Source of the DNA: an uncultured Fibrobacter sp.
GTDB lineage: Bacteria; Fibrobacterota; Fibrobacteria; Fibrobacterales; Fibrobacteraceae
Assembly: GCA_946186895.1 (NCBI GenBank)
Contig: CAMHOW010000007.1
Location: forward strand, 1-64,000
Direction of reading: 5' to 3'
Length of the DNA stretch: 64,000 bases
Of the stretch, positions 5,814 through 60,635 are shown in pieces. The notes beneath the pieces were generated by a model. It saw only the letters and a list, made by a program, of their open reading frames with translations, did not search any database and was not told the origin of the DNA. Within the stretch, counting starts at the first letter, position 1. Each line of letters opens with the position of its first letter. A program made the position numbers and the translations under genes.

Positions 5814-5850
5814 GAATTCGGAGTTCGGAGTTCGGAATTCGGAATTAGGG
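5814..5850. repeat. tandem GAATTCGGAGTTCGGA-type repeat
   Basis: Direct repeat of ~9-10 bp units (GAATTCGGAGTTCGGAG...) directly upstream of the TPR gene. The same family appears inside the gene at 1755-3059 (2208-2240) and at the 3' end of the histidine kinase gene (39270-39358). The rest of the 5801-6103 gap holds an AT-rich stretch and the promoter described at 6039-6066. Confidence 0.7.
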
Positions 5851-11951: not shown

Positions 11952-12238
11952 GTGAGCAACAAAGCCCCTAGTATTAACTAGGGGTGGTTGCGAGAGAATC
12001 CGCATGCCGGAGAATCCATTCTAGGTTTTAGCGGATTCGGTCGTTATTGTGAGCAACAAAGCCCTGGTATTAACCAGGGGCGGTTGCGAGAGAATCCGCA
12101 TGCCGGAGAATCCATTCTAGGTTTTAGCGGATTCGGTCGTTATTGTGAGCAACAAAGCCCCTAGTATTAACTAGGGGCGGTTGCGAGAGAATCCGCATGC
12201 CGGAGAATCTATTCTAGGTTTTAGCGGATTCGGTCATT
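11952..12238. repeat. three tandem copies of a ~97-bp structured repeat
   Basis: Copies begin at 11952, 12049 and 12145 (97, 96 and ~94 bp). Each starts GTGAGCAACAAAGCCC, forms a first hairpin around loop ATTA, and a second fold in which GAATCCGC pairs with GCGGATTC and encloses AGAAT-CC-ATTCT. In copy 2 the first stem reads CCCTGG/CCAGGG where copies 1 and 3 read CCCCTAG/CTAGGGG, a compensatory A-T to G-C change. No open frame runs through all copies. It fills the 11745-12298 gap together with REP elements at 11925-11950 and 12241-12268; the remaining 11745-11920 is AT-rich and holds the promoter side of the small secreted-protein gene. Confidence 0.85.
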
Positions 12239-12240
12239 AA

Positions 12241-30045: not shown

Positions 30046-30242
30046 CCGTTTTTGCCCTGCAATCCCTATTCCCTGACCCCTAGATCCTAATCTCTTATTA
30101 TATATTTAGAGTCCCTAGATCTCGTTTGGCGGGCGGGCGGTACTTTCCGTCAAGAAACCGGCGGGGTTCGGAGGCGTTCCATACTTTTGGAAGGCCTTTT
30201 AGGGATTTGACTAATCGATTTTGCTTTACTTTTAGGAGTTTT

Positions 30243-39269: not shown

Positions 39270-39358
39270 AAGTTTTTACAATTCGGAATTAGTAAGTAGG
39301 AATTAGGAATTGTTTCAAAAACTGTAAATTTGAACTCCGAACTCCGAACTCCGAATTA
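39270..39358. repeat. AATTCGGAATTAG / GAACTCCGAACTCCGA repeats at the 3' end of the histidine kinase gene
   Basis: Two runs: AATTCGGAATTAGTAAGTAG and, oppositely oriented, GAACTCCGAACTCCGAACTCC. The kinase stop codon (TAA complementary to 39356-39358) lies within the last unit, so the element forms the end of the gene. Same family as 2208-2240 and 5814-5850. Confidence 0.7.
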
Positions 39359-57208: not shown

Positions 57209-58651
57209 TTAACTTACTTCCCAATAGCCTCCTTTATCGGGCCCAACGCGTTTTACAATGCCTTCGGCCTGTAGCTTTGCAATATTCTTTTCTACGGCTC
57301 TCGTTGTCACCCGTAGTGATTCCGCTATCATGGGTATGGTAATTTTAGGGTTTTCTTTCATCATTTCGATGATTTTCACCGAACTTTTCACCGAACTTTT
57401 CACCGAACTTTTCACCGAACTTTCCACCGAACCTTTCTGTGAACCATTGGGAACATCAGAGTCAACGCCCTCATTCAACTCAAACGGCATTACATTAATC
57501 CTGTTGAACGGAATCGTCACCACAATGAAATTCTTCTCGATCTTTATAGAATCTCGACCATACGCCCCGACAATCTTCGGCACACCGCGGCCTGATCGTT
57601 CACTTAGCCGCAACTGCAAGAACATTGAGGCAAGAATTTCGTTGACAGGGATACTCACGCCCTTGTAAAACCCTTCCAAATCCGGCTCAAGTCCGAGACC
57701 GCCATGCGAAAGTATCTCAATGCGGTCCGTGAAGACGCTTATCATGGGGGCATTCATGCCTAGCCACTTGTTATGAATAAACGCGTTCAATACCGCTTCA
57801 TGGAATGCCTCGTAGTCAAAAAGAGGAACATCCTTTCGTTCTGAAATGCGGCCTCGTTCATCCGCCTGGATTATATTGATGGCATCGCCGTATTCTAGAA
57901 TTTTATCCATCGCGTATAAGATGCAGGTGTTCCCGTATTCCTTGACCGAAAACAACGTATCAGCCTTGCTTTTGCCACTAAAAACAGACACACGAATTGG
58001 AATGTCATTCGCATCCGAAAGCAGCAGTGCCATGATATTGTAACGCCCGTCTGCAGTCAAGAGCTTGAGCGATTTCTTGAAAGTTTCCTTGCGGAGGGCA
58101 ACCCCTTTTGCCCCATAATACATGAACAGTTTTTCAAATGTCAGTTCCTGCGCATAATCGGGTGCGGCCATACTGACAATTGTCGGAATGCCGTTAGACA
58201 ACGTATTCAAAAGACGAATCTCCCATTCAGGGAACTTAGAGAGCTTTTCCTTGCTTGAACCGATTCGGATAAAAGCCTGCGACAGGAACTTCGTCGGGAC
58301 TGATTTCGCGGCGGGAACAGACAATAAAACAAGGCGTTTGTCGTCAATCTGAACCTCTTCGACCTCAAAAGCAACGCTTGGCTTTAAATTCCGGGCGAGA
58401 TAATGCTTGTAGGGTTCGTGATCAACGTCCTTGTCGAAGTTTACAGTTGTGCCTATGATTTCGTGGGTTGAATTATGGATTCCCCACACGATATAGCCAA
58501 ATTCCCGGCCACACAAGGCCGCCCCGTTTGAAATCGCCGAAATATACTCGCCAATTTCGTCTTTTGAAAACCAACTTTCCTTAAAGTCTAGCCACTCATA
58601 TTCATGCGGAATGGCCACTAGGTTCTTTATAAGATCTTCTGATTTTGCCAT
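57209..58651 (-). CDS. AlbA_2/Schlafen-like + HATPase_c_4 regulator with tetrapeptide-repeat linker and C-terminal HTH
   Basis: 480 residues from ATG 58651, which has GGAGG 11 bp upstream; the ATG at 58669 lacks a site. N-terminus HEYEWLDFKESWFSKDEIGEYISAISNGAAL is the AlbA_2 putative DNA-binding/Schlafen-like domain. The middle (~270-400: FDYEAFHEAVLNAFIHNKWLG, FTDRIEILSHGGLGLEPDLEG, SERSGRGVPKIV) is the HATPase_c_4 fold. Then comes SVESSVK followed by repeats of SSVK, coded by five 12-bp units (57373-57432), and a C-terminal winged helix (NPKITIPMIAESLRVTTRAVEKNIAKLQAEG). Often linked to mobile or defence regions. Adjacent to the repeat remnants at 58920-59245. Confidence 0.85.
   Translation of the reverse strand: MAKSEDLIKNLVAIPHEYEWLDFKESWFSKDEIGEYISAISNGAALCGREFGYIVWGIHNSTHEIIGTTVNFDKDVDHEPYKHYLARNLKPSVAFEVEEVQIDDKRLVLLSVPAAKSVPTKFLSQAFIRIGSSKEKLSKFPEWEIRLLNTLSNGIPTIVSMAAPDYAQELTFEKLFMYYGAKGVALRKETFKKSLKLLTADGRYNIMALLLSDANDIPIRVSVFSGKSKADTLFSVKEYGNTCILYAMDKILEYGDAINIIQADERGRISERKDVPLFDYEAFHEAVLNAFIHNKWLGMNAPMISVFTDRIEILSHGGLGLEPDLEGFYKGVSIPVNEILASMFLQLRLSERSGRGVPKIVGAYGRDSIKIEKNFIVVTIPFNRINVMPFELNEGVDSDVPNGSQKGSVESSVKSSVKSSVKSSVKIIEMMKENPKITIPMIAESLRVTTRAVEKNIAKLQAEGIVKRVGPDKGGYWEVS
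57373..57432. repeat. five tandem 12-bp units (TTCACCGAACTT) inside the AlbA_2 gene
   Basis: CACCGAAC begins at 57377, 57389, 57401, 57413 and 57425. On the coding strand the unit reads Ser-Ser-Val-Lys. Copy-number changes would stay in frame. Confidence 0.9.
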
Positions 58652-58910
58652 AAGCTTTTTTGCCTCCATATTGCCACAAATTGCGGCTGGTTGATGTTAG
58701 AGGCGTTCTTGCAAAACCGAAAACCCGGTTAAAACAAACGCGCCCAAGCCGAGAGCAGCGGAAATAAACTTGTTTATTTCCATTGCCGAGGCGAAGCGCG
58801 TTGCGTTGTAAACGAAAAACGCACCTCGCCTTAAAACAGCGAGATGCGTCGGACGGTAATGTACCTAATATCTAAAAAGTTGGCAAGAGGGGGAAGAAAA
58901 TTTTACAAAG
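58652..58910. other. intergenic region with hairpin
   Basis: No supported gene. GGAAATAAAC (58760-58769) and GTTTATTTCC (58772-58781) form a 10-bp perfect inverted repeat. A separate terminator lies at 58814-58849. The rest is unremarkable. Confidence 0.6.
58814..58849 (-). terminator. strong terminator with no intact gene upstream
   Basis: ACGCACCTCGC (58819-58829) and GCGAGATGCGT (58839-58849); the minus strand continues TTTTTCG. Minus-strand sequence upstream (58920-59300) contains only degenerate frames, so this is the likely 3' end of a decayed gene. Confidence 0.7.
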
Positions 58911-58920
58911 CGGGCCATTT

Positions 58921-59245
58921 TTATCCTCTCACTTATCCTATCGTTTAACCTATCACCCAATCTTTAACCCAACTTATTGCCCAACTCATCACCCAACCGC
59001 CATCATTCTTTATTGGACATTTTATTGGACAATGTATTGGACATTTCTGCAAGATTTCAGATTGGGGCAACACAGCTGCCCCAATTTATGGCTGATATTG
59101 TGCCATTTATTGTGTCGTTTATTGTGTCATACGTTGGGAACATTTGGGCCATTTTTTAGGCCTCTTTTCTATTTCACCGAACTTTTCCCCGAACCATTGA
59201 GAACGTCCAAGATTTGACCACCTATTTGACCACCCACTTGACCAC
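58921..59245. repeat. cluster of four unrelated 12-bp-period repeat arrays, probable gene remnants
   Basis: Arrays at 58921-58992 (six units such as CCAACTCATCAC), 59010-59046 (TTGGACATTTTA), 59106-59126 (TTTATTGTGTCG) and 59214-59246 (TTGACCACCTAT). On the minus strand they read tetrapeptides such as LGDR, LGNK, MSNK, TIND and GGQ[VI]. At 59174-59212 the minus frame reads DVLNGSGKSSVK then stop, homologous to DVPNGSQKGSVESSVK of the AlbA_2 gene at 57209-58651. Open frames crossing them are broken. This fills most of the 58652-59343 gap; 59250-59343 carries an AAGGAG ribosome site for the next gene. Confidence 0.75.
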
Positions 59246-59343
59246 CTGCTACAGTATCATCGACCCCCAAAAGCAGCTCTACTTTACCGACGATGTCGGA
59301 ATAAAAGTGTATATTAGAATCCATACGCTAAGGAGATTCCGCC

Positions 59344-59529
59344 ATGACCCAAAAACTCTGGAACACCTGCAAAAAGTGCGGTTGCGAAAAGCCCGAAGAC
59401 ACCGAGAAGCTTTGCGAGCAGTGCAAGGCCAAACGGCGGCAATTCTGGAGCGATCTCAAAAAGGTCGGCGGCGTAGCCGCTGGCGCCCTCCTGGTAGTAT
59501 TCGCCGGCGGGAAACTGAGGAAGAAATAA
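59344..59529 (+). CDS. 61-residue zinc-ribbon single-pass membrane protein
   Basis: ATG 59344 with AAGGAG 8 bp upstream. CKKCGCEKPEDTEKLCEQC gives two CxxC pairs, a charged middle, a hydrophobic helix (VGGVAAGALLVVFAGG) and a basic tail KLRKK. A decayed copy of the same gene lies at 60632-60738, so the pair flanks the fic gene. Function unknown. Confidence 0.75.
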   Translation: MTQKLWNTCKKCGCEKPEDTEKLCEQCKAKRRQFWSDLKKVGGVAAGALLVVFAGGKLRKK

Positions 59530-59572
59530 AGCATTCTACTTGACCGGCAACGGTGCATAATATATATTTAGG

Positions 59573-59630
59573 ATGTCGGAATAATGTCGGATTAATGTCG
59601 GATAAGATGTCCATGAAAATGTCGGATAAA
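59573..59630 (+). repeat. ATGTCGGA(T/A) repeats across the fic start
   Basis: ATGTCGGA-type units begin at 59573, 59584, 59595, 59607 and 59619 with spacings 11, 11, 12, 12. The first two read ATG TCG GA[AT] TAA, i.e. three-codon mini-frames; the third opens the fic frame. Unit-number change by an 11-bp unit would shift frame or start. Confidence 0.75.
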
Positions 59631-60635
59631 TATGAGCCGCCCTTTACGCTCAACACGGCGATAGTCATCCTTGCAGCAGAGATTGCGGCCAAGGTCGAAC
59701 GGTTTGCCATCCGGTTGGAACAGCCGGATAGTCTGCGCCTGCGCAGGGTCAACCAGATTCAAAGCATCCACAGTTCCCTGGCGATAGAAGGTAACATGCT
59801 TTCTGAAGACCAGGTGTCCGACATCATCGAAGGCAAGCGGGTTGCCGCCCCTGCACGCGAAATCCTAGAAGTAAAAAACGCCCTGCGGACCTACGAACTG
59901 TACCCCTCACTAAACGCATTTTCTGAAAAGGACTTGCTCAAGGCCCATGCCGTAATGATGCAGGGAATGATTCCCGACGCGGGCAAATACAGGAATTGCA
60001 ATGAAGGCGTATTTAAAGGGAAAAAGTGCGTCCATTTCGCTCCGCCACCGAAAATGGTGCCCATCCTGATGAAGAACCTCTTTTCTTGGCTAAAGAGGAG
60101 CAAGATGCATTGGCTGATTCGGTCCTGCATCTTTCATTATGAATTTGAGTTCATCCACCCGTTCCGGGATGGCAACGGACGAATGGGCCGCCTGTGGCAA
60201 TCCCTTATTCTAGGCAAGTGGAACCCCGTCTTTGCGCACCTGCCTGTCGAGAATCTGGTCTACGCCAACCAACAGGAATACTACAACGCAATTAACGCAT
60301 CAAGCACGGCCAGCGACTGCAGTATTTTTGTCGAATTCATGCTGGACAAGATTCTGGGAGCACTAAAGGATGTTCAGAATGTTGAAGTCGAGACGCCAGT
60401 TGCAGAAACCATCCACTTGACCGCCCGTCAAGAAAAGATTATCGCAGCGCTGAAAAAGAACAACTTCCTTACCGAAAAGGAATTGGCAGAAAAGTTTGCC
60501 GTCACCCCAAGGACGATTGAACGTGATCTAGCGAAGTTGCAGCAGTACGGAACGCTTGAACGAGTCGGTTCAAAAAGAGACGGTCGCTGGATTGTCAAAA
60601 AAATAGAATCTAGTTGCCAAGGACACCCGCGATGA
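59595..60635 (+). CDS. Fic-domain protein with N-terminal inhibitory motif and C-terminal HTH
   Basis: 346 residues from ATG 59595, chosen because it begins the MSDKMSMKMSDKYEPPF repeat frame; ATG 59607 or 59619 are possible. Fic motif HPFRDGNGRMGRL at ~205-217 transfers AMP (or similar) to a hydroxyl on target proteins. The class II inhibitory motif SSLAIEGN at ~65-72 keeps the enzyme inactive until relieved. C-terminal winged helix (EKELAEKFAVTPRTIERDLAKLQQYG) suggests autoregulation or DNA binding. Repeats at the start and a duplicated small gene on each side suggest recent rearrangement. Possibly toxin or defence effector. Confidence 0.85.
   Translation: MSDKMSMKMSDKYEPPFTLNTAIVILAAEIAAKVERFAIRLEQPDSLRLRRVNQIQSIHSSLAIEGNMLSEDQVSDIIEGKRVAAPAREILEVKNALRTYELYPSLNAFSEKDLLKAHAVMMQGMIPDAGKYRNCNEGVFKGKKCVHFAPPPKMVPILMKNLFSWLKRSKMHWLIRSCIFHYEFEFIHPFRDGNGRMGRLWQSLILGKWNPVFAHLPVENLVYANQQEYYNAINASSTASDCSIFVEFMLDKILGALKDVQNVEVETPVAETIHLTARQEKIIAALKKNNFLTEKELAEKFAVTPRTIERDLAKLQQYGTLERVGSKRDGRWIVKKIESSCQGHPR

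Follow-up and report, generated by a model that had tools for sequence, protein, structure and literature searches.

Tetrapeptide linkers of AlbA_2-type proteins look like translated arrays of the proteins' own DNA target, and an intergenic array cluster in Fibrobacter is read as their remains

The window analyzed here comprises the 64,000 nucleotides at positions 1 to 64,000 of contig CAMHOW010000007.1 (assembly GCA_946186895.1) from an uncultured Fibrobacter sp., a rumen-type genome assembled into 134 contigs totaling 2.8 Mb and 88% complete. A series of short tandem arrays at 58921-59247 lies between a minus-strand gene coding for a 486-residue protein, in which the SLFN_AlbA_2 (PF04326), HATPase_c_4 (PF13749) and wHTH (PF08279) domains all scored above cut-off, and a plus-strand small ORF followed by a fic gene. 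The features flanking the arrays are the following:

57209-58669, minus strand: gene for the SLFN_AlbA_2, HATPase_c_4 and wHTH protein
57269-57307, minus strand: predicted recognition-helix codons TTRAVEKNIAKLQ of this gene (helix 33-45 of the model)
57373-57437, minus strand: linker array of this gene, GTTCGG sites at a 12-bp period
58850-58818: terminator-like hairpin near the AlbA_2 promoter
58858-58886, minus strand: sigma-70-like promoter of the AlbA_2 gene
59293-59303, plus strand: ATGTCGGAATA site upstream of a 61-residue ORF at 59344
59553-60635, plus strand: Fic protein with a C-terminal HTH (helix TPRTIERDL)
59573-59631, plus strand: 11/12-bp direct repeats ATGTCGGA(A/T)TA, just past the Fic promoter (59540-59568) and into the start codon region (MSDK)

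The arrangement TTGCCA-17-TACATT followed by a variable terminator-like hairpin occurs at 58810-58890 and also upstream of L050, L061 and L067-L069; one promoter and leader are common to many AlbA_2 genes of different subfamilies, as if the cargo reused an expression cassette. In L072 and L073, a long conserved leader, TATTACGACAATCC...GACAGTCGGCATAGGCC..., lies 5′ of the AlbA_2 start and has no Rfam match. No relatives of the window's AlbA_2 gene were found on viral contigs. Elsewhere, the window contains heptanucleotide tandem arrays (TTCGGAA, GAATTCG, AATTAGG and GAACTCC) at 2214-2241, 5814-5846 and 39280-39355, a 96-bp unit in three tandem copies with 95% matches at 11952-12239, and a Fibrobacter-1 RNA (RF02983, 105 bits) at 30103-30204.

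A reading of the sequence alone had described 58921-59245 as four adjacent arrays of 12-bp period. This periodicity was borne out, 12 bp being the sole period detected in 58921-59247: its run score of 74.5, spread over five runs, was attained by none of 2000 dinucleotide shuffles (mean 0.04, maximum 10.5), periods 7-11 and 13-17 scored zero, and Tandem Repeats Finder also called the arrays. The four types named (LGD, MSNK, TIND and GGQ) are all present, but with KWPK and SSVK the count rises to at least six. The following elements, all read on the minus strand, were recognized:

58921-58954, minus strand: INDR array GATAGGTTAAACGATAGGATAAGTGAGAGGATAA, a site type that intact genes combine with helix EPTINRT
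58949-58999, minus strand: LGD/LGN array TTGGGTGATGAGTTGGGCAATAAGTTGGG... with an in-frame TAA, paired with helix TTAIEKN
59009-59046, minus strand: MSNK array of ATGTCCAATAAA units (period-12 run 59009-59043), helix KTAQR
59061-59085, minus strand: palindrome ATTGGGGCAGCTGTGTTGCCCCAAT between TIND and MSNK, matching DUF1016/YhcG
59096-59130, minus strand: TIND array of ACAATAAACGAC units (period-12 run 59096-59128), helix DSTVARA
about 59143-59164, minus strand: KWPK array, a single degenerate unit (relatives have GTGGCCCAAA units), helix HTTIKK
59172-59209, minus strand: SSVK remnant with left flank, DVLNGSGKSSVK followed by a stop, with GTTCGG sites of the resident AlbA_2 gene's type
59212-59247, minus strand: GGQ array (GGQV/GGQI) of GGTGGTCAAAT units (period-12 run 59212-59246), helix SAVQKH in intact genes

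The LGD period-12 run proper occupies 58968-58997 and extends to about 58949; in intact genes, LGD and INDR make up a single composite linker. GGQ and SSVK lie in one frame while TIND, MSNK and LGD/INDR lie in another, and stops intervene between the arrays, leaving the cluster non-coding and without an open frame. No RNA family was found at the arrays.

Every array type of the cluster was found as the in-frame linker of some intact SLFN_AlbA_2 gene, as the sequence-only reading had proposed for the arrays in general and for the stop-terminated SSVK piece, which indeed matches the linker of the adjacent gene. LGDRINDRI is the linker of MNKENHL-type genes and GGQM/GGQI that of MDLAKFE-type genes, KWPK is found in L208, TIND occurs intact as NDTINDTIND in L227, and the MSNK units are identical to those of P0001-type genes. 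Almost all AlbA_2 genes sampled from the genus have a linker of 12-bp period at one fixed place, with a differing tetrapeptide. The arrays match at least five AlbA_2 subfamilies in addition to DUF1016, which speaks against their proposed duplication from the neighboring gene. Homology to intact genes extends beyond each array by between a few and some tens of bases, and short left and right flanks of some lost genes remain attached.

Pieces of the 58921-59247 region are present in 47 of 80 Fibrobacter genomes. Eight fuller loci (L081-L088) follow one array order, GGQ, SSVK, KWPK, TIND, MSNK, LGD/INDR, a PEQV array and GGQI, each lacking some of the arrays; the unit numbers, proposed earlier as a check among relatives, proved variable (1-3 for MSNK, 0-4 for INDR). 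The series of L081 terminates in GGQIGGQI fused to a complete winged-helix tail. Those of L084 (L084b) and L085 open with the beginning of an AlbA_2 gene that has lost its middle, the deletion lying at a shared CTGCGGG. Over the 95 bp past this junction, identity to the 3′ part of the intact L208 gene, KWPK array included, is 95%, giving the order AlbA_2 gene start, its own 3′ part, arrays. Orphan linker and winged-helix fragments without the ATPase part were also observed (L081:4480-4696, L065:1342-1731 and, in the window's own genome, L337 (C89), which has helix RQVER and an NVGE linker).

We compared the identities of linker, ATPase and wHTH across 105 genes. Where the ATPase parts were at least 90% identical and the wHTH 30-50% identical, the units were unrelated (6.9/12, background 6.3); where the ATPase parts were less than 30% identical and the wHTH 50-70%, the units were related (9.2/12). 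Partial correlations and permutation backed this comparison. Since the unit tracks the identity of the wHTH and not that of the ATPase, linker and wHTH constitute one module. The linker swapping suggested by the sequence-only reading, and with it the idea of a reservoir of linker variation, has partial support insofar as linkers do change between close relatives, but they do so jointly with the wHTH.

We then added 34 genes of the same phylum but of other genera and families, and retained 87 representatives below 65% wHTH identity; groups of related genes inflate some of the counts, despite the use of representatives and permutations. The unit tracked the recognition-helix residues beyond common ancestry (partial r between unit and helix given the rest of the wHTH = 0.296, permutation P = 2×10−4), the mean unit match being 6.0 for helices identical at 0/7 residues, 8.0 at 4/7, 8.8 at 5/7 and 10.3 at 6/7. 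The effect peaked at helix positions 4, 6 and 7 and was about nil at the buried positions 9 and 12. In a confident model of the wHTH, the unit-linked residues fall in helix three, the recognition helix, and the modeled fold is similar to that of MarR-type DNA binders, with ZitR with DNA as the top match; a sequence-based search turned up no solved structure similar to the wHTH. Although right about the identity of the linkers, the earlier reading had missed this common feature, a DNA motif that tracks the recognition helix.

It is the DNA and not the peptide that is conserved, as codon sharing and the use of two reading frames both indicate. When distant pairs were aligned by peptide, identical residues used the same codon in 73-94% of cases (about 78%) if the helices matched at 4 or more of 7 residues, compared to 46-59% (about 48%) if they mismatched, the ranges excluding a single-pair bin; an alternative codon test, whose pairs had been preselected by DNA similarity, was biased and was dropped for the peptide-aligned one. 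One DNA unit is read in different frames before similar helices in MSNK (KTAQR) and NVQE (KTIQR), with only mild enrichment of frame-shifted unit matches overall among the 87 representatives.

For a cross-phylum set, we searched plasmids by tblastn with the AlbA_2 protein and its wHTH. The linker sites found there in Fic and AlbA_2 genes were those predicted by the Fibrobacter genes (RAVEK-GTTCGG, TAIEK-GTTGGG, TIER-ATGTCGG and GIEWQ-ACTAGG), in the sole independent test of these rules, which was itself selected by wHTH similarity, the rules having first been derived from the same Fibrobacter data. GTTCGG occurs three times in the linker of a Treponema Fic (SRAVEK) at 13 and 20 bp spacing in two frames, twice in that of an Azotobacter Fic (QRAVEK) and repeatedly, in two frames, in that of Phocaeicola (KRAIEK). 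Arcobacter (TTAIEK) has GTTGGGTGAA three times, matching the TAIEK-GTTGGG rule, Runella (KTIER) has ATGTCGG three times and Aliarcobacter (KGIEWQ) has ACTAGG three times. Matches whose helix type is absent from the Fibrobacter set (for example, TIGR in Salinivibrio and Shewanella, YIRK in Parabacteroides) are uninformative in both directions. In the training set itself, at least two GTTCGG copies are present in 4/4 RA(V/I)EK genes and in 0/82 others, and several other rules behave alike on these same data.

Own-promoter operators were considered for the Fibrobacter AlbA_2 genes and rejected: the linker unit showed no overall excess in the gene's own promoter, where it matched at 9.26 versus 9.25 in the promoters of others, and was found in the promoter only of some Bacilli AlbA_2 genes (L028 group, L040). 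Any autoregulation in Fibrobacter would therefore act from within the gene. In the Bacilli promoters of L028-L034, L040 and L043, direct repeats are equal or close to the gene's own linker unit (GTTGGTAATAAA; GTATACAATAAA versus GTATCCAATAAA). Judged by eye, the Fic-promoter repeats in relatives seem to change in step with the Fic helix.

The palindrome ATTGGGGCAGCTGTGTTGCCCCAAT is about 90% identical over 39-44 bp to a hypervariable in-frame segment of DUF1016/YhcG genes, of which other alleles carry a different palindrome at the same position. In 7/8 genes, the palindromic score of this segment was higher than in any control window from that gene, and in 5/7 it was higher than in synonymous re-draws. 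Judging from these sequences, DUF1016/YhcG may be another family that holds its DNA site within the gene. In L074, L097, L308, L303, L306, L318 and L321, the hypervariable segment preceding LSW(S/T)H forms a DNA palindrome that is nearly perfect, and the palindromes vary between alleles (ATTGGGGCAACAGTGTTGCCCCAAT, ATTTGACAGACAGTGTCTGTCAAAT and others). At L066:1376-1420, two different YhcG-type palindromes adjoin in an intergenic region; an INDR array and its winged helix come next.

Together, we consider it probable that the linkers of AlbA_2-type proteins and of some Fic proteins are translated arrays of the DNA site of their own wHTH, and that the cluster holds leftover arrays of deleted genes. 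The linker appears to be a DNA target array of the protein itself: translation of tandem copies of the site recognized by the winged helix would yield the tetrapeptides that precede this domain, so that a DNA address would travel inside the gene together with its reader. We infer that the wHTH binds its own array, which would serve autoregulation by blocking elongation or a nearby promoter. We read the cluster at 58921-59247 as the fossil linkers of lost genes; several AlbA_2 genes and one DUF1016/YhcG gene would once have occupied this hotspot and then been deleted, leaving behind arrays that would now be mostly functionless, although some may still be bound. Decay does not fully explain the survival of mainly the arrays, which were perhaps preserved by slippage re-expansion or because deletion joins fall in arrays. 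Rather more tentatively, the mobile AlbA_2, Fic and DUF1016/YhcG families might carry their own address in the ORF such that any cell with a copy could recognize and silence incoming or duplicate copies of the same specificity, the clusters then being live collections of addresses.

An unlikely alternative in our view, and a step below the preceding one, is that the cluster consists of live operators exerting multi-input control between the divergent AlbA_2 and small-ORF promoters, read by resident and incoming winged-helix proteins. The arrays do sit between two divergent genes with the AlbA_2 promoter adjoining, sites of two unrelated families are gathered there, two putative readers are adjacent (the RAVEK AlbA_2 for GTTCGG, the TIER Fic for ATGTCGG at 59293), and the GGQ site is fitted by a SAIQ-type Fic encoded elsewhere in the genome. 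However, no reader for TIND, MSNK or LGD/INDR turned up in wHTH searches of the 88% complete assembly, the arrays have the 12-bp period of coding arrays where the Fic promoter has 11 bp, and both left-hand and right-hand flanks of lost genes remain joined to them. These observations, with the match to at least five subfamilies and DUF1016, are why we take the arrays as fossils.

The two remaining explanations concern the linkers themselves. That they are ordinary flexible linkers, in which the tetrapeptide is what matters, inherited with the wHTH and homogenized by slippage, would accommodate a period that is a multiple of three, the turnover of units by slippage and the co-inheritance of the adjoining linker and wHTH; we hold it to be very improbable given that the unit can be predicted from surface residues of the helix over and above the remainder of the wHTH, that third codon positions are shared and that a single site is read in two frames within one linker. 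Least credible of all is the earlier suggestion of silent cassettes donating to the expressed gene by gene conversion. The cluster and the linkers do have sequence in common and linkers differ between close relatives, but the arrays come from different subfamilies, homology is short, being mostly array and short flanks, no conversion or donor-specific tract was seen, and linker and wHTH change jointly.

If linkers are indeed translated target arrays, then unrelated peptides sharing a 12-bp period would be explained, the message being the DNA, and this would offer a clear example of one set of bases serving as both regulatory site and protein linker and moving as a unit between genes and phyla. 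Should binding hold, the target sites of thousands of uncharacterized AlbA_2 and Fic regulators could be read off the genes themselves, and a winged-helix recognition code could be derived from about 90 natural helix-site pairs. We found no description of AlbA_2 tetrapeptide repeats or of sites within a regulator's own coding sequence in a literature search that left subscription literature mostly uncovered, such that a prior description is possible.

Three known systems invite comparison. In the S subunits of the type I restriction systems EcoR124I/II, TAEL tetrapeptide repeats of constant peptide act as a spacer setting the gap between half-sites (PMC3874165). The AlbA_2 linkers are likewise 12-bp, four-residue repeats of variable copy number between domains of a DNA-recognizing protein, yet they are not HsdS TAEL-type spacers: they join other domains, their peptide is arbitrary and varies among genes, and their DNA unit goes with the recognition helix. 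BldC, a wHTH protein, binds direct repeats as head-to-tail multimers (PMC5859096), and thus resembles the AlbA_2 proteins in pairing a winged helix with tandem direct repeats of about one helical turn, which the latter would bind; unlike them, BldC is MerR-like and its described sites lie in promoters, outside its own coding sequence. RptR is an autoregulated defense-island repressor with 9-bp promoter repeats (PMC12255303). AlbA_2 proteins would share with it the association of a repressor with a direct-repeat array in a mobile defense context, whereas RptR combines its 9-bp promoter repeats with a conserved helix and has no coding array diversifying with that helix.
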